A stretch of DNA of 64,000 nt from Halococcus salifodinae DSM 8989 (GTDB lineage Archaea; Halobacteriota; Halobacteria; Halobacteriales; Halococcaceae). Positions 3,519 to 30,605 of this stretch are shown here, piece by piece; position 1 is the stretch's first letter; each line of letters starts with the position of its first letter. The position numbers and the translations under genes were made by a program. The stretch spans positions 10,511 through 74,510 of the forward strand of contig NZ_AOME01000076.1 of the NCBI RefSeq assembly GCF_000336935.1, written 5' to 3'. A model generated the notes under the pieces. That model was not told the origin of the DNA. It did no database searches and saw only the letters and a program-made list of their open reading frames with translations.

Positions 3519-4067
3519 ATGACTGGCGACCGCGTCACGGTCTCGTTGGATAGCGATGCAAGTGCCGCCCTCGAAACGCTCACTAGCCGCACAGAGAACG
3601 GACAAAGTGAGCTCGTCCGCCAGGCACTCACGTTCTATGCGGCAAATTTCGAAGCGGCGACGGCCGATGCGAGCGCCAACTTGGAAGAGTATCATCGAAT
3701 GCTCGCTGGTGGTGAACACGTCCTTCTCGATGTCGACTTCCTGCACTGCTTTCTCGAACATATCGAGGGTGAGTCGGGCGATCCCGACCCCGACTTTCTG
3801 GAGTGTACCGATCGCGTTGCAGAGTATCATACGAGCGAATACGACGAGCGATTCACCGATCTCGGCGAACTTCTCGATTGGCTGTCGTTCTGTGGTTTTC
3901 TCACGGTTCGCGAAACCGAAGCGGACACCTACCACATCGTCTTTCCGACGGAGTCGATGAAGTGGTTCATGCTTCGGTTCATCGAGCGGAGCACCGCATC
4001 GCTCGACTTCGATATCGATGTCAACGAGGGTGTTTCGAAAGTGCTGCTCACCGAACGACACGAATGA
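3519..4067 (+). CDS. Ribbon-helix-helix (CopG-like) domain protein
   Basis: A 182-aa protein. Residues about 4-45 fit a ribbon-helix-helix fold: a short basic strand DRVTVSLD followed by two helices with SELVRQAL. The remaining 130 residues are acidic and resemble the C-terminal region of similar haloarchaeal RHH proteins of unknown ligand. It is divergently transcribed from the MutS-like gene and lies just upstream of the transporter/hydantoinase operon, so it is a candidate local regulator; that link is inference from position only. Confidence 0.7.
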   Translation: MTGDRVTVSLDSDASAALETLTSRTENGQSELVRQALTFYAANFEAATADASANLEEYHRMLAGGEHVLLDVDFLHCFLEHIEGESGDPDPDFLECTDRVAEYHTSEYDERFTDLGELLDWLSFCGFLTVRETEADTYHIVFPTESMKWFMLRFIERSTASLDFDIDVNEGVSKVLLTERHE

Positions 4068-4122
4068 ATACCGATGCAGTGAGTCCGGTTCGCAGTGGTC
4101 TTGCTTGGCCAGTTCATACGGC

Positions 4123-4137
4123 TGCATACTGTATGCA
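4123..4137. promoter_or_regulatory. 15-bp perfect palindrome, candidate operator
   Basis: TGCATAC-T-GTATGCA is a perfect 7-bp inverted repeat around one central base, lying 63 bp before the start of the transporter/hyuAB operon and 56 bp after the RHH gene. It fits a dimeric repressor site. The binding protein is unknown; the RHH protein immediately upstream is a candidate. Confidence 0.5.
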
Positions 4138-4199
4138 CACCGTTCACAGCAACCCTTTTCACCCGATTGTGTAGTGATCTATCGTGAGGTAGATTGGGA

Positions 4200-5408
4200 A
4201 TGGGACTCATCCAACGATTGCGGACGATCGGCCCGGGAGCGATGGTCGCGGCGGCGTTCATCGGACCCGGAACCGTCACGACGGCGAGCGTCACGGGCGC
4301 ACGCTTCGGCTATGCACTGGTCTGGACGCTCGGCTTTTCGATACTCGCAACGATCGTCCTTCAGGAGATGAGCGCTCGCCTGGGGCTCGTTTCTCGTGAG
4401 GGGCTTGGCGAAGCGTTGCGTGATCAGTTTGACAATCCGATCGCCAAATGGGGATCGATCGTCCTCGTCGTTGCTGCCATCGGGGCCGGCACGGCCGCGT
4501 ACGAAGCCGGGAACATCCTCGGCGGGGCGGCCGGGTTGGAAACCATCACCGGCGTGAGTTCGACGATCTGGGGGATCACGATGGGAGTTGTGGCCGGAGC
4601 GCTCCTCTATACGGGGAAATACAAGCTCATTGAGCGCGCGCTCGTCGGGCTGGTCGCCATTATGGCGATCTCGTTTCTCGTGTCGGCAGCACTCATCGGC
4701 CCGGACTTCGGTGCGCTCGCGGCCGGGTTCGTCCCGACGATTCCCGACGGATCGGTGTTTCTCATCACGGGACTCATCGGCACGACAGTCGTCGGCTACA
4801 ACCTCTTCTTGCACGCGAGCAACGTCCAGGAGCGCTGGAGCGGTCCAGCGGAACTGTCCGACTGTCGGACGGACACGGTGCTATCGATCCTCATCGGCGG
4901 GCTCATCACTATCGCCGTGCTCGTGACGGCGGCGGCTGCGTTCCCGACCGGCACCGAGATCTCCGACGTCGGGCGGATGGCCGAGCAGCTCCGGCCGATC
5001 GCCGGTCCGTACGCGACGCTGTTTTTCAGCATCGGACTGTTCGCGGCCGGGTTCACGAGCGCAACGACCGCCCCGCTGGCTGGTGCCTACGCCACCACGG
5101 GCGCGCTCGGGTGGGATACCGACCTCTCCGCGCCCCGGTTTCAGGCGGTGTGGGGTGTCATTCTTCTGGTGGGCGTCTCGTCGGTCCTTCTTGGCGGGAG
5201 TCCGGTCGAAATCATCGTGTTCGCACAGGTCGTCAACGGTATTCTCCTCCCGATCATCGCGATCTTCCTCATCATCGCAATGAACTCCGATACACTACTC
5301 GGCGAGTACACCAACGGCACGGTGTCGAACGTTCTCGGTGGTCTCGTGACGATAATCGTCGTCTGGCTCGGCGTCCGGACGTTCCTCACGGTGACGGGAG
5401 TGCTCTAA
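4200..5408 (+). CDS. NRAMP-fold transporter lacking canonical metal-site motifs
   Basis: A 402-aa polytopic membrane protein of the SLC11/NRAMP family. In canonical NRAMPs helix 1 carries DPGN and helix 6 carries an A/M-x-P-H-N type motif for transition-metal binding. Here helix 1 reads GPGT (residues 22-25) and helix 6 reads VVGYN (about 197-201), so the Asp, Asn, Met and His ligands are absent. The substrate is therefore probably not Mn or Fe. The stop overlaps the hyuA start by one base, implying a transport role for the hyu pathway. ATG 4200 is preferred over the in-frame TTG at 4194 because GAGGT lies 10 bases upstream of the ATG. Confidence 0.85.
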   Translation: MGLIQRLRTIGPGAMVAAAFIGPGTVTTASVTGARFGYALVWTLGFSILATIVLQEMSARLGLVSREGLGEALRDQFDNPIAKWGSIVLVVAAIGAGTAAYEAGNILGGAAGLETITGVSSTIWGITMGVVAGALLYTGKYKLIERALVGLVAIMAISFLVSAALIGPDFGALAAGFVPTIPDGSVFLITGLIGTTVVGYNLFLHASNVQERWSGPAELSDCRTDTVLSILIGGLITIAVLVTAAAAFPTGTEISDVGRMAEQLRPIAGPYATLFFSIGLFAAGFTSATTAPLAGAYATTGALGWDTDLSAPRFQAVWGVILLVGVSSVLLGGSPVEIIVFAQVVNGILLPIIAIFLIIAMNSDTLLGEYTNGTVSNVLGGLVTIIVVWLGVRTFLTVTGVL

Positions 5409-20554: not shown

Positions 20555-21889
20555 GTGGCCGTCACGCTCGCGTTCGAGGACGGAACAATCAGAATCGAGG
20601 GGAGCGTTCCCGATCTCCCGTTCGTCGAGACCGATCCGCGCTCGAAGACCGCCCGCGCGCCCGCCGTCCGCTACGTCGCCCTCCGCGAGGCGATCGACGA
20701 GCGGGGCGTCGCCGTCGATGATCGCGTGCTCGACGCCCCCTCGATCGACGTGGCGTCGGCGTACGAACTCCGAGAGTACCAACAGGAAGCGCTCGATGCG
20801 TGGCGTGCGAACGACGATCGGGGCTGTCTCGAACTCCCGACCGGGAGCGGGAAGACCGTGATCGGGCTCGCGGCGATCGAGGCGCTCGACACCGCGGCGC
20901 TCGTGGTCGTGCCGACCATCGATCTGCTCGAACAGTGGCGGCGGGAGTGCGAAACCGAGTTCGACGTGCCGGTGGGGCAGTTGGGTGGCGGCGAACAGCG
21001 CGTCGAAGCCCTCTCGATCGCGACGTACGACTCCGCCTACCTCCGGGCCGACGACATCGGCGATCGGTTCGGGCTCGTGATCTTCGACGAGGTCCACCAC
21101 CTCGGCGGCGAGGGGTACCGCGAGATCGCGCGCCTGGTCGCCGCGCCCGCGCGGCTCGGGCTGACCGCGACGTTCGAACGCCCCGATGGGGCACACGAGA
21201 TCGTCGAGGACCTCTGTGGCCCGCTCGTCCATCGGATCGCGCCCGACGATCTGGCGGGGGAGCATCTCGCGGCCTACGACATCAAGCGACTCGAAGTCGA
21301 ACTCACCGAGGAGGAACGAGCAGAATACGACGATCACCGCGAGACGTTCACGAACTACCTCGCTCGCTCGAACCTCGACATGCAAAGCGGGAGCGACTAC
21401 CGGAAGCTCGTGATGCGCTCGGGCAACGACCCGCAGGCGCGCGAGGCGCTGCTCGCCAACCAGCGCGCTCGCGAGGTGATGATGAACGCCGACGCCAAGG
21501 TAGAGACGCTCGCCGACCTCCTCGATCACCACCGCGAGGACAGGGTGATCGTCTTCACGGCGCACAACGACCTCGTGTATCGGCTTTCGGAGCGGTTTCT
21601 CATCCCGGCGATCACCCACCAGACGGGAGCGGCCGAGCGCCATGAGGTCCTCGCGAAGTTCCGCGAGGGGACCTACTCGCGGGTCGTCGCGGCGAACGTG
21701 CTCGACGAGGGTGTGGACGTGCCGGCCGCGAACGTCGCGGTCGTTCTTTCAGGGAGTGGTTCGACCCGGGAGTTCACTCAGCGGCTCGGGCGGATTCTGC
21801 GTCCGACAGAGGACGGGGGACGGGCGCTGCTCTACGAGGTCGTCACCGAGGAAACCGCCGAGGAGAATATTGCTGACCGGAGGCATTAA
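20555..21889 (+). CDS. XPB/Rad25-family DNA repair helicase
   Basis: A 444-aa SF2 helicase. The N-terminal damage-recognition-like domain (1-70) precedes ELREYQQEAL, Walker A PTGSGKTV, the DEVHHL box, LTATFERPDG, and motifs V-VI VLDEGVDVPAANV and FTQRLGRILRP. This is the archaeal XPB that pairs with the nuclease Bax1 in DNA repair. The start is a leaderless GTG. The last codons (ENIADRRH) shift toward AT-rich usage just before the foreign gene, suggesting the insertion replaced the original C-terminus or stop region. Confidence 0.92.
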   Translation: MAVTLAFEDGTIRIEGSVPDLPFVETDPRSKTARAPAVRYVALREAIDERGVAVDDRVLDAPSIDVASAYELREYQQEALDAWRANDDRGCLELPTGSGKTVIGLAAIEALDTAALVVVPTIDLLEQWRRECETEFDVPVGQLGGGEQRVEALSIATYDSAYLRADDIGDRFGLVIFDEVHHLGGEGYREIARLVAAPARLGLTATFERPDGAHEIVEDLCGPLVHRIAPDDLAGEHLAAYDIKRLEVELTEEERAEYDDHRETFTNYLARSNLDMQSGSDYRKLVMRSGNDPQAREALLANQRAREVMMNADAKVETLADLLDHHREDRVIVFTAHNDLVYRLSERFLIPAITHQTGAAERHEVLAKFREGTYSRVVAANVLDEGVDVPAANVAVVLSGSGSTREFTQRLGRILRPTEDGGRALLYEVVTEETAEENIADRRH

Positions 21890-21892
21890 CAA

Positions 21893-22966
21893 TGATCCGG
21901 TTGAACCGCAGAGCACCTCGTTATGTATCTGGATACGATTAAGATTGTAACTGCACCAAGAGAAGGATCTGAGAGTATAGATCCGTTATTTTTCACCAAC
22001 AAAACGATCGAGCAGAATGAGGACCATTTCGAGGTGTTAGATCCTGGTACAGAGATTAACCAAGAGGTTCAAAACTATATGGAGGACCGGGAAGAAGGTG
22101 TGAAAAAGAAATTATCTTCGTTTGGTCCAGTGGTAAGTAATAGTATTTGGGATGCGCTGGCTCCAGAGCGGGAGTTATCTATGATAAAGGAATTTTTCCG
22201 AGAAAGCAGTTCACTTTTAATATATGGTGGACCTGAAACAGATGGCCAAATTCTGGCATTTTTCAATAGAAATTCTCAGCCAAGACGAACGACTAGTATT
22301 AACAACTATGTCACTCGATTGCAACTAGTTGCAGAATCTTCAGACGATTGTCAAAATTTCGTTCAGTTCATGAAGTCGGAAATAGAGTCTATATCAGAAG
22401 TTGTCGGTGAATTTGTGTCTTTAGATGGGTTGTCAAATGGAGTGGAACTCGTGAAGGAGTATCTAGATAGTCATGATCAGATACAAAGTTGGGAGACAAC
22501 AGAATCTCAGAACGATTTTGAAGAAAATGTCCAACTGAATGTAGAAGAGTTTGTGGGGCCCTCTATACGAAACGTAAGGGTATATTTTGACTCGGGCAAC
22601 GGAGAATATGATGTAGTTGCGCTTCCATTAGGAGGACAGGGTAGCAAATTTGCTATCGAGGCAAAGAATTTTCAGAGTGTTCAGCAGTCTATAGACGAGG
22701 AAGAACGCGAATCAGAATTAAGTGCAGACAATCTTCAATCTAAGCTCATAAATCAGCCAAAGGTGAGTGCTGAACGGATTGGGCTTTCTCTGATCATGAT
22801 TGTGAACGATATTCCTGAGCAGACATACGCAAGTCTTCAATCACAAGCAAGTCCTATCGGGGTAACTCTCCTCAATAATGAAGATCATCGAGAGGGACTG
22901 GATGAACAACTTGTCACCAATACAATTCAAGATATCACAGAGTAACTTATAGTCATATCTGGGACT
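21893..22966 (+). mobile_element. AT-rich inserted segment between XPB and Bax1 genes
   Basis: Base composition and codon use change abruptly at about 21868 and revert exactly at the bax1 ATG (22967). The segment holds one gene and no visible transposase, terminal inverted repeat or target duplication. It is called an insertion because XPB and Bax1 are normally adjacent and the surrounding DNA is GC-rich. Confidence 0.6.
21923..22945 (+). CDS. AT-rich gene with PD-(D/E)XK nuclease-like signature
   Basis: A 340-aa protein of no family I recognise. The N-terminal 200 residues are mixed alpha/beta. Residues 198-300 fit a restriction-endonuclease-like core: an acidic helix NDFEENVQLNVEEF, then EYDVVAL with D230, a hairpin, and FAIEAKNF giving E246-x-K248. 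After this come a helix rich in Glu, NLQSKLINQPKVSAERIGLS and a strand LIMIVNDI. This order (D...ExK, then helix and a closing strand) is the PD-(D/E)XK pattern. It lies between a repair helicase and its nuclease partner and could be a defence or accessory nuclease using that operon. The nuclease call is inference from motif order. Confidence 0.7.
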   Translation: MYLDTIKIVTAPREGSESIDPLFFTNKTIEQNEDHFEVLDPGTEINQEVQNYMEDREEGVKKKLSSFGPVVSNSIWDALAPERELSMIKEFFRESSSLLIYGGPETDGQILAFFNRNSQPRRTTSINNYVTRLQLVAESSDDCQNFVQFMKSEIESISEVVGEFVSLDGLSNGVELVKEYLDSHDQIQSWETTESQNDFEENVQLNVEEFVGPSIRNVRVYFDSGNGEYDVVALPLGGQGSKFAIEAKNFQSVQQSIDEEERESELSADNLQSKLINQPKVSAERIGLSLIMIVNDIPEQTYASLQSQASPIGVTLLNNEDHREGLDEQLVTNTIQDITE

Positions 22967-24550
22967 ATGCTCACGAAGGACCTCCTCCGGGTGTCACGCG
23001 CGGGCGGGGGCTACCACCCGCAGTTTTCGATCCGGGAGGACCGCCCGCTCGCGGCGCGGGTCATCGGGGTCTACCAGGGCCACGTCGGCGAGGCCCGCCA
23101 CGAACTCGACGCCGCGCTCGAAGAACTCGAACGCGCGGCCGACGACTTCAAGCTCGTCCGGGGGTTCGCGAAGCTGCTCGATCGCGAGGCCACCTTCGAG
23201 ACGCGGGCGGCAATCGACCCCGAGCGCGCGCGGCGCGCGACGTTCGCGGCCGCGGAGTCCGTCGGGATCGTCACCACGGCTGAACGTGGCCAGGCACTCA
23301 CTGCGGCCGCCGACCGACTCGACACCACCCCCGAAACCGTCGAGCGCTCGTTGTACGCCGACCTCGAAGAACGCGAGATCCTCGCGGCGTTCGATTCGCC
23401 GTGGAATCCCGAAGCACTCTGCGCGCAGTACGACCTCTCACTCGCCCAAACAGTACTGTTCGACGCGACCGAACTCCGGGTGCGGAGTGCGGACCCGAAG
23501 GCGCTGGTCTCGGCGGTCAAACGTCTGCGACTCATGTACGAGATCCGAAACACCGACGCGAGTCCCGGTTCGGCTGCGGGCGCGCTCTCGGATCGCGAGG
23601 TGATCGTCACCGGCCCCGATAGTCTGTTCCGGCGAACGCGGCGGTACGGCACGCGGTTCGCCCGGCTGCTCCGGACGATCACGAAGGCGGGCGAGTGGGA
23701 ACTTTCGGCCACCATCGACGACCGCGGGACCGACCGCGAACTCCGACTCACACACGATGACCTCCGGATGCCAGGCACCGAGCCCGTGGTCGAAATCGAG
23801 TACGATAGCGCCGTGGAAGCGGACTTCGCCGCGCGGTTCGAATCGCTCGATCTCGACTGGGAGCTCGTGCGCGAACCCGAACCGCTCGCGACCGGCTCGC
23901 GGGTGATGATCCCGGACTTCGCGTTCGACTGGAAACACGGGACTCGCGACGTCGCCGACGGCGACTCGAGAGCAGGGAAGACTGTCTCTTCCCGCGCGTT
24001 CCGGGTGTTCTTCGAGATCATGGGCTTCTGGACGCCCGAGTACGTCGAAAAGAAGCTCGATCAGATCCACGGTTTGGAGGACGTCGAACTGCTCGTGGCG
24101 GTCGACGAGTCGCTCGGCGTCGGCGAGGACCTCGAAGCCCGCGACGCCCGCGCAATTCCGTACTCGGGCACCGTGGGACTCGCGGACGTCCGCGACGCGC
24201 TTCGAGAGTACGAAGACCGACTGAACGACGAGCAGGCGGCGGCGTTGCCCGACGAGCTGATTCCCGAGCCGGACACTATCACGCTCGCCACACTCGCGGC
24301 CGATCACGGTGTGAGCGAGACCGCGATCGAGAACACGGTGTTTCCCGAGCACGAACGAGTCGGCCGGACGCTCGTTCGCCCCACCGTGCTCGATGCGCTC
24401 GCCAGCGAAATCGAACCAGGGATGGAGCTATCGACTGCTGAGGACCGGCTCGATGAGCACGGCATCGATGACGCGAGTGCGGTGCTGTCGCGGCTCGGCT
24501 ACCGCATCGAGTGGAAGGGATTGAGCGGCGGCGACGTCCGAGAAAAGTAG
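22967..24550 (+). CDS. Bax1-like nuclease (DUF790), XPB partner
   Basis: A 527-aa DUF790 protein. The N-terminus MLTKDLLRVSRAGGGYHPQF and a helical region lead to a nuclease core with VEIEYDSAVEADFAARF, MIPDFAFDW and FFEIMGFWTPEYVEKKLDQ (PD...ExK-like acidic residues). Bax1 binds XPB and cuts DNA at bubble structures in archaea. Residues about 324-343 (WKHGTRDVADG to SRAFRVFFEI) look longer than in relatives and carry an inverted repeat in the DNA. The partner XPB gene is upstream, but an AT-rich gene intervenes. Confidence 0.9.
   Translation: MLTKDLLRVSRAGGGYHPQFSIREDRPLAARVIGVYQGHVGEARHELDAALEELERAADDFKLVRGFAKLLDREATFETRAAIDPERARRATFAAAESVGIVTTAERGQALTAAADRLDTTPETVERSLYADLEEREILAAFDSPWNPEALCAQYDLSLAQTVLFDATELRVRSADPKALVSAVKRLRLMYEIRNTDASPGSAAGALSDREVIVTGPDSLFRRTRRYGTRFARLLRTITKAGEWELSATIDDRGTDRELRLTHDDLRMPGTEPVVEIEYDSAVEADFAARFESLDLDWELVREPEPLATGSRVMIPDFAFDWKHGTRDVADGDSRAGKTVSSRAFRVFFEIMGFWTPEYVEKKLDQIHGLEDVELLVAVDESLGVGEDLEARDARAIPYSGTVGLADVRDALREYEDRLNDEQAAALPDELIPEPDTITLATLAADHGVSETAIENTVFPEHERVGRTLVRPTVLDALASEIEPGMELSTAEDRLDEHGIDDASAVLSRLGYRIEWKGLSGGDVREK
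23975..23993. repeat. Inverted repeat inside Bax1 coding sequence
   Basis: GGGAAGA-CTGTC-TCTTCCC is a perfect 7-bp stem with a 5-nt loop. It encodes part of the RAGKTVSSR stretch just before the conserved FRVFFEIMGFW. Confidence 0.55.
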
Positions 24551-29222: not shown

Positions 29223-29238
29223 TACCTTTTACTGAGGT

Positions 29239-29251
29239 GGGGGGGGGGGGG
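29239..29251 (+). repeat. Run of 13 G
   Basis: A 13-base G homopolymer directly after the PAC2 gene, at the left boundary of the AT-rich patch. It may be a real length-variable tract or an assembly artefact. The rest of 29223-29547 holds the direct repeat pair and no gene. Confidence 0.6.
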
Positions 29252-29422
29252 ATCAACCCTCTTGACCGATTAACAGTCTATCCCTCCTGTGGGGACGATC
29301 ACGTCTGTTGTGAAGCCACCCGCCTTCATCGTATAGTTTCTGACGACACAACATATCGTGCAACAATACAAAAGATATATTGGTGCGAAAGTGCTACTCA
29401 CAGTTAGCAGCCGGATGGGTCG

Positions 29423-29525
29423 GTCAATGATCCCTCGGGTAAAGGGGAATGAGCCCACCTAATCTGGCTGAGTAGTATGGCTGGCAGCGTGCGAGTCAAT
29501 GATCCCTCGGGTAAAGGGGAACGAG
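29423..29525 (-). repeat. Two 31-bp direct repeats 72 bp apart
   Basis: Copies at 29423-29453 and 29495-29525 differ at one base and share GTCAATGATCCCTCGGGTAA. On the minus strand each reads as a short TCCC...GGGA hairpin followed by ATCATTGAC, which resembles the right-end hairpin of IS200/IS605-type elements (TnpB guide RNA scaffold). The 41-bp spacer is unique. No tnpA, tnpB or cas gene is nearby. A CRISPR call is not supported with two copies. Confidence 0.5.
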
Positions 29526-29547
29526 ACTCCCTGTCTGTCGGCCGTTT

Positions 29548-30249
29548 TCAACCTTGTAGCAGTAAGTCCTTCATCATCCTGGCTGGTGTTTCGCAACGGC
29601 CTTTTGTAGCAAACTGAGCCCATGAGTACGCAGCCACGTCAGCAAACTGAATTCCTGGTGTAGATTTACTGTCTCTTATTGCAAATTCAACATCATCTGG
29701 TACGTTTTCAATTTGACATAACCCACTGTCGATGTAGTTCGCGGGTGCTGTCCATGTTTCAGCATCCAAAACCACTCGTACACTTTCGACCGGAGAGCAA
29801 TTTACTAGGTGATTGTTCAAAATAGGATTTAATATTGATGATAGCAGGAATGTCTGAAGCATAGCGGGAGACTGTTGGTCGATCCCCGCAACGTCTTTGA
29901 CCAAGGTATTCATGAGGCCTGGATTCAGGTTGTTAGCAGTATATCGAAATACTCGATCATCGGTCCATACTGGTGGGTTCTGATGAATGGAATCGTCCCC
30001 ACGAAAGGTGGATTGCAACGTGCTAAAAAGTACATCTAATCCGTCATTGCGGATTTGGCTACCCTTGAGTTCATTTTCGGGTCCTCGACGCGCGTAGTTG
30101 GTGTTCATTTGCTCCAGCAGCTTATCCTTAGATGATTGGAGAACTGCGGAAGGTTGTCGGTCAGAGACACACCAAAACCCGGCAACAGTGAAGAACGAGC
30201 CATTACCAGGAGTACCACTTTCATCAACAAACACATAAAGACTACTCAT
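29548..30249 (-). CDS. DUF3800 domain protein
   Basis: A 233-aa protein with the DUF3800 hallmarks: LYVFVDESGTPGNGSFFTVA at the N-terminus and IRDSKSTPGIQFADVAAYSW near the C-terminus. These Asp/Glu residues suggest an RNase-H-like metal site. The gene is AT-rich compared with its surroundings, as DUF3800 genes often are in mobile or defence regions. The role here is unknown; the 31-bp repeats lie just downstream. Confidence 0.8.
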   Translation of the reverse strand: MSSLYVFVDESGTPGNGSFFTVAGFWCVSDRQPSAVLQSSKDKLLEQMNTNYARRGPENELKGSQIRNDGLDVLFSTLQSTFRGDDSIHQNPPVWTDDRVFRYTANNLNPGLMNTLVKDVAGIDQQSPAMLQTFLLSSILNPILNNHLVNCSPVESVRVVLDAETWTAPANYIDSGLCQIENVPDDVEFAIRDSKSTPGIQFADVAAYSWAQFATKGRCETPARMMKDLLLQG

Positions 30250-30363
30250 AGATCATCAGTCTGCTTCCTTTACTGCTCTGTTGCAGGATAATACTTTACA
30301 AATCCGATAGACTACCTATCGAAGAGACGATATTATAGACAAGTGTCTGACTTATATTCTCAA

Positions 30364-30605
30364 TCAAGTGCTCGGTATGAATTGTCGAAAAAGACTCAAT
30401 TTCCCTGGTCTATGTTTCGGGTGGATCGATAGCCGATGTAACTCTTGATCGATCTCGATATCGACTCCTTCTCCGTGATGCGGTTTTGCGAAAATCCCAT
30501 CAACATTTGCATGTGAAGTCATTTGTCGCTGGCATAGGACGATCGAACTTACTGAACGGATATCACCTGATACTTGCCCCTTCCGGTCGAGATCTGCCCT
30601 GCCTC
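30364..30605 (-). pseudogene. Possible gene remnant of unknown family
   Basis: An open stretch with protein-like composition (DLDRKGQVSGDIRSVSSIV, ANVDGIFAKPHHGEGVDI, DIEIDQELHRLSIHPKH) ends at a stop at 30364-30366 but has no clear start on the right, where it runs into the YkgJ gene in another frame. The family is not recognised. It may be a truncated gene left beside the DUF3800 insertion. The remaining bases of 30250-30610 show no gene. Confidence 0.25.

Follow-up and report, generated by a model that had tools for sequence, protein, structure and literature searches.

The XPB and bax1 genes in the 64-kb stretch of DNA analysed here (the window, which lies in a 201-kb contig, C76, of the haloarchaeal genome G000) are separated by a gene for a 340-amino-acid protein that, judged by its composition and the position of its boundaries, is foreign and horizontally acquired. 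On balance we take it to be single-gene mobile cargo, probably encoding a stand-alone defence nuclease. Coordinates of the gene, of its predicted nuclease domain and of the sequences that flank it are collected in Table 1.

Table 1. Features of the insert and its flanks in the window, and of the integrative element that carries a relative
Feature	Position	Strand	Details
XPB helicase gene (flank), full length	20555-21889	+	444 aa; Pfam XPB_DRD, ResIII, Helicase_C, ERCC3_RAD25_C
Left boundary of the foreign DNA, as judged from codon usage	21866-21922	+	last seven XPB codons insert-like, TAA stop, 33-bp spacer
Inserted gene, 340-aa two-domain protein, ATG start	21923-22945	+	ORF; full-length homology to L002, L003 and L066
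Predicted C-terminal PD-(D/E)XK-like nuclease domain, residues 182-340	22466-22942	+	AlphaFold domain model and VIA-align
Predicted catalytic motif	22610-22666	+	D230 GAT 22610-22612; E246 GAG 22658-22660; K248 AAG 22664-22666
Right boundary: AT-rich tail that replaces the native sequence upstream of bax1, TATA-like stretch included	22946-22966	+
bax1 (DUF790) nuclease gene (flank), intact	22967-24550	+	Pfam DUF790 E 7.5e-121
tRNA-Leu integrative element of G182 (L021/L022)	G182:C1:2406474-2420552		integrase, type IIG restriction gene, nuclease homologue

A foreign gene and its boundaries

The original prediction, of an AT-rich gene on the same strand as XPB and bax1 and of a shift in composition running from the last XPB codons to the bax1 ATG, was borne out in both parts by codon scores and by comparison with the other genomes of the host genus (10 genomes including G000). 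The GC content of the inserted gene is 0.406 compared to 0.657 for the whole window, its GC3 is 0.356 where native genes have 0.834, and no other 1.1-kb stretch of the 64 kb is as low in GC as the one that runs from position 21851 onward. On the left-hand side, XPB codons 438-444 (AAT ATT GCT GAC CGG AGG CAT) include several rare ones, and the eight-codon window at this tail has a score matched by just 0.57% of native eight-codon windows, while at the same position all congeners with XPB in view have GC-rich codons, as in CGC GTC GCC GAG CGC CG... XPB is not truncated by this, as it has the same length and the same C-terminus, TAEERVAERR(R/H), as in the congeners. On the right-hand side native sequence restarts exactly with the start codon of bax1 (ATG in the window), and bax1 itself is 70-86% identical to its congeneric counterparts. 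Taken together, this indicates that the insert took the place of a short XPB-bax1 spacer and that the exchange points lie in the conserved last XPB codons and at the bax1 start codon; both repair genes are intact. An assembly error at the insert is unlikely, given the intact frame within a contig of 201 kb.

No direct repeats were found at the ends of the insert in the window, and hence no target-site repeat, and the only neighbours of the gene are XPB and bax1, with no integrase or other element gene beside it, so that both the flanking repeat and the integrase of a tRNA-type integrative element are absent for this copy. Nor is there a methylase beside it, which leaves the locus without the cognate methyltransferase of a restriction-modification system, and an Rfam search gave no match. 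In several congeners TTTTTATA sits, as judged by eye, about 27-32 nt upstream of the bax1 GTG; the stretch bearing it was removed by the insert, suggesting that bax1 may now depend on read-through. The inserted gene would probably also be transcribed by read-through, in its case from XPB.

A rare family carried by mobile DNA

Among at least ~840 distinct archaeal genomes searched, one per species, homologues were found in four (the window copy counted), together with a fifth member on one tailed-virus contig. The three other haloarchaeal relatives (L002 in G182, L003/L017 in Natronomonas aquatica and L066 in G774) share 31-33% identity with the window protein over its full length (E to 5e-53) and are 50-67% identical among themselves, and the viral member, L067, recovered by a scan of viral contigs, is 21% identical to the window protein. 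Two further genome matches were judged to be false, L004 (E 0.005) lying antisense within an unrelated gene and L020 (E 0.009) being merely a 55-position match. No profile in Pfam, NCBIfam, PADLOC or PHROGs matched the family and no member was found in the plasmid and phage collections. The protein belongs to a rare and as yet unnamed family, whose members have about 340-355 amino acids with an N-terminal domain and a C-terminal domain of probable PD-(D/E)XK fold. Had homologues been widespread as unlinked core genes with the composition of their hosts, this would have spoken against the original reading; those found occur in few genomes, show no linkage to XPB and are AT-rich in each haloarchaeal host, and all four haloarchaeal copies have 39-42% GC irrespective of the genome in which they reside.

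The surroundings of the relatives are mobile in character. The G182 copy lies inside an element of 14,025 bp whose two ends are exact 54-bp repeats of the 3' half of tRNA-Leu (Table 1), where it adjoins a tyrosine integrase gene (Phage_integrase E 7.8e-15) and is divergent to a type IIG restriction-methylase gene. The N. aquatica copy has a tRNA-Val gene on one side and HsdM/specificity-like type I restriction genes on the other. The G774 copy is a 41% GC gene in 66% GC surroundings on a 5.3-kb MAG contig, which carries no restriction genes. L067 (4974-5930 of IMGVR_UViG_3300031876_000242) is found in an AT-rich block with the major head protein gene on one side and head-tail connector genes on the other; this block has 35-39% GC compared to ~51% for the rest of the virus contig. 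A divergent gene on the minus strand (3820-4848) lies beside L067 within the same block. The low GC content of the gene in every host, along with these mobile surroundings, is what would be expected of mobile cargo that came from an AT-rich source, and the family is evidently carried by haloarchaeal integrative elements and by at least one tailed virus.

It is this mobile carriage, together with the restriction-gene neighbours, that leads us to favour defence over other uses, bearing in mind that only two of the four other members have enough chromosomal context to be placed near restriction genes. That the PADLOC defence library did not recognise the protein counts against a defence reading. 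The same surroundings could be those of a selfish or element-maintenance nuclease, homing-like or acting in plasmid or virus exclusion, that serves a mobile element and not its host; copies beside an integrase in a tRNA-bounded element and among tailed-virus virion genes, and a very patchy distribution, would fit this well, but the window copy has neither an adjoining element gene nor a target-site repeat, and we regard this reading as rather unlikely while giving it some weight. It overlaps with defence, and sequence cannot separate the two. Methylase/specificity genes lie no more than a few kb from two relatives, which could also mean that the protein is the nuclease subunit of a restriction-modification system from which it is now separated, but the neighbouring systems are of different types (type IIG and type I), the window copy has no adjoining methylase and an active restriction subunit on its own would be toxic, making such an origin improbable.

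The predicted nuclease domain and its possible role

The proposed D230...E246-x-K248 arrangement is present in the inserted gene, and in an alignment of the family the three residues are invariant in 4/4 haloarchaeal members. In the viral L067 the last motif reads E-P-T, its Lys having changed to Thr, so that L067 may be inactive and not every member of the family need be an active nuclease. A full-length AlphaFold model of the product was poor (pLDDT 46), with a C-terminal half predicted to run in the order H199-214, E220-223, E230-233, E242-247, H268-285, E289-294. The C-terminal domain modelled alone, from 3 sequences, reached a pLDDT of 60.7 and a pTM of 0.59. Foldseek alone gave no significant match for this domain (best E 0.22), but when VIA-align was applied to the Foldseek candidates it ranked PD-(D/E)XK nucleases first, with Z of 11.9 for Cdn1, 11.6 for VC1899, 11.3 for Can2, 8.2 for Card1, 8.1 for truncated Bax1 (6p4w_B), 8.0 for AF1548, 7.5 for BstEII, 7.3 for BsaWI and 7.0 for PspGI, where the stated background reaches a best Z of 7-8. 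A viral fold library gave weak matches, some of them named restriction or endonuclease-like. From the invariant triad and these structural matches it is probable that the C-terminal half adopts a PD-(D/E)XK fold, as was originally predicted. The full-length model is too weak for the N-terminal half; it does match ferredoxin-like parts of M20 peptidases (Z about 8-9), but no better than would be expected of a common arrangement.

The high divergence within the family and the loss of the motif Lys in the viral member could be taken to mean that the insert is foreign DNA which was trapped in a permissive gap and persists as an inactive relic without present function, but this is very doubtful as the 340-residue frame is intact, the motif is whole and other positions are common to all members.

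Comparison with known systems places the predicted domain closest to that of VC1899 and the CRISPR ancillary CARF nucleases Can2, Card1 and Cdn1, which are its best structural matches (Z 8.2-11.9 over 122-135 residues) and which have the same layout of an N-terminal domain followed by a C-terminal PD-(D/E)XK domain. In CARF nucleases such as Can2 the N-terminal part serves in target recognition or assembly (PMC7969007). The insert matches that family in neither Pfam nor NCBIfam, and no CARF-type match was listed for its weak full-length model. Shedu (SduA), a single-gene anti-phage nuclease, similarly joins a variable N-terminal domain, which gives target recognition or assembly, to a C-terminal PD-(D/E)XK nuclease (PMC12904381), but the insert has no match to DUF4263 in Pfam or to SduA in PADLOC at E <= 1, and so it is a profile member of neither Shedu nor the CARF nucleases. 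The type II restriction endonucleases BstEII, BsaWI and PspGI share the PD-(D/E)XK core (Z 7.0-7.5) but differ in that the insert has a different N-terminal domain and no cognate methylase at the window locus.

We therefore propose, tentatively, that the protein works alone, without XPB or Bax1, and that its N-terminal domain of about 180 residues may act in target recognition or oligomerisation while the C-terminal domain would carry out metal-dependent cutting of nucleic acid with the ion held by D230, E246 and K248; its role would most likely be that of a defence (or inter-element exclusion) nuclease. This would add a small unnamed family to the mobile PD-(D/E)XK nucleases of archaea and, as its members are few, its copies distant and one relative virus-borne, a defence role could be tested directly in a laboratory haloarchaeon. 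A more elaborate scheme, in which this is an antiviral single-gene archaeal nuclease family with a new N-terminal sensor and the Lys-less viral copy acts against the host enzyme as its decoy or inhibitor, is a long shot.

The XPB-bax1 gap in haloarchaea

Among the matches listed, which favour the closest relatives, there were 103 haloarchaeal genomes with both genes, and in 91 of these XPB and bax1 lie on the same strand within ~4 kb (gaps of 5 bp to 4 kb), so that the two are normally neighbours as had been claimed; they do not normally abut, since only 20 of the gaps are under 150 bp, with 46 at 300-700 bp and 25 above 800 bp, the window included. Within the genus, eight of the nine congeners have a gap of 42-351 bp with no gene inside, and the ninth, G006, has a DUF2891 gene there. 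The insert of the window was not found at this junction in any other genome searched. Fetched gaps from 40 haloarchaea (L024-L063), as judged by eye, most commonly hold a small convergent lipoprotein-like gene, and others hold VapBC-like (L045), TnpB-like (L027) and further genes. The XPB-bax1 gap is thus a variable, tolerated slot for many unrelated genes in haloarchaea, and with the composition of the insert, the gene-free gaps of most congeners and the mobile surroundings of the relatives, this agrees with the suggestion that the foreign gene is cargo at the junction.

The other suggestion made for this locus was a three-part repair or defence module, in which the nuclease would act with XPB and Bax1, XPB delivering it to lesions or to foreign DNA. 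The insert does lie on the same strand between the two genes with no promoter of its own visible, and Bax1 has a restriction-like nuclease domain (PMC7293015) and is itself a fold match of the insert (6p4w_B, Z 8.1). However, the insert has no sequence relation to Bax1 and no DUF790 match, linkage to XPB or bax1 is seen in 0/4 of the remaining family members, which disfavours a partnership with them, and a gap that is empty of genes in 8/9 congeners and holds many unrelated genes in other haloarchaea does not support a module. Such a partnership is thus highly improbable. Since foreign genes can land in this gap and be tolerated there, XPB-Bax1 adjacency alone is no evidence of a common pathway.

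The junction of G006 (L023, G006:C184, 380-1600) contains the DUF2891 gene and then, beyond it, a duplicated XPB 3' end (29/39 matches compared to <=24/39 for shuffles). A block, GACCGCCGAGGAG, is common to G006 and the window and lies just before the point at which the window XPB turns AT-rich; the window has no right-hand copy of the XPB 3' end. A general role for the XPB 3' end as an attachment site was considered and rejected, because a second copy was seen in G006 alone among 44 junctions. A diverged second XPB-like gene beside a bax1-like gene, at 32-51% identity, was also found within the genus, G000 included (L015 and L016, at G009:C157 and G000:C63).

Another AT-rich insert, with a GC of about 0.43-0.50, is present nearby in the window at 29230-30560, where a PAC2 gene and a CxxCxxCC gene flank it, and is absent from the same place in G006 (L023), so that the window has two single foreign genes within 8 kb of each other. 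The second insert contains a DUF3800 gene on the minus strand (29548-30249, Pfam E 1.1e-8), beside which is a 38-nt direct repeat (29423-29460 and 29495-29532) whose copies are 89% identical.
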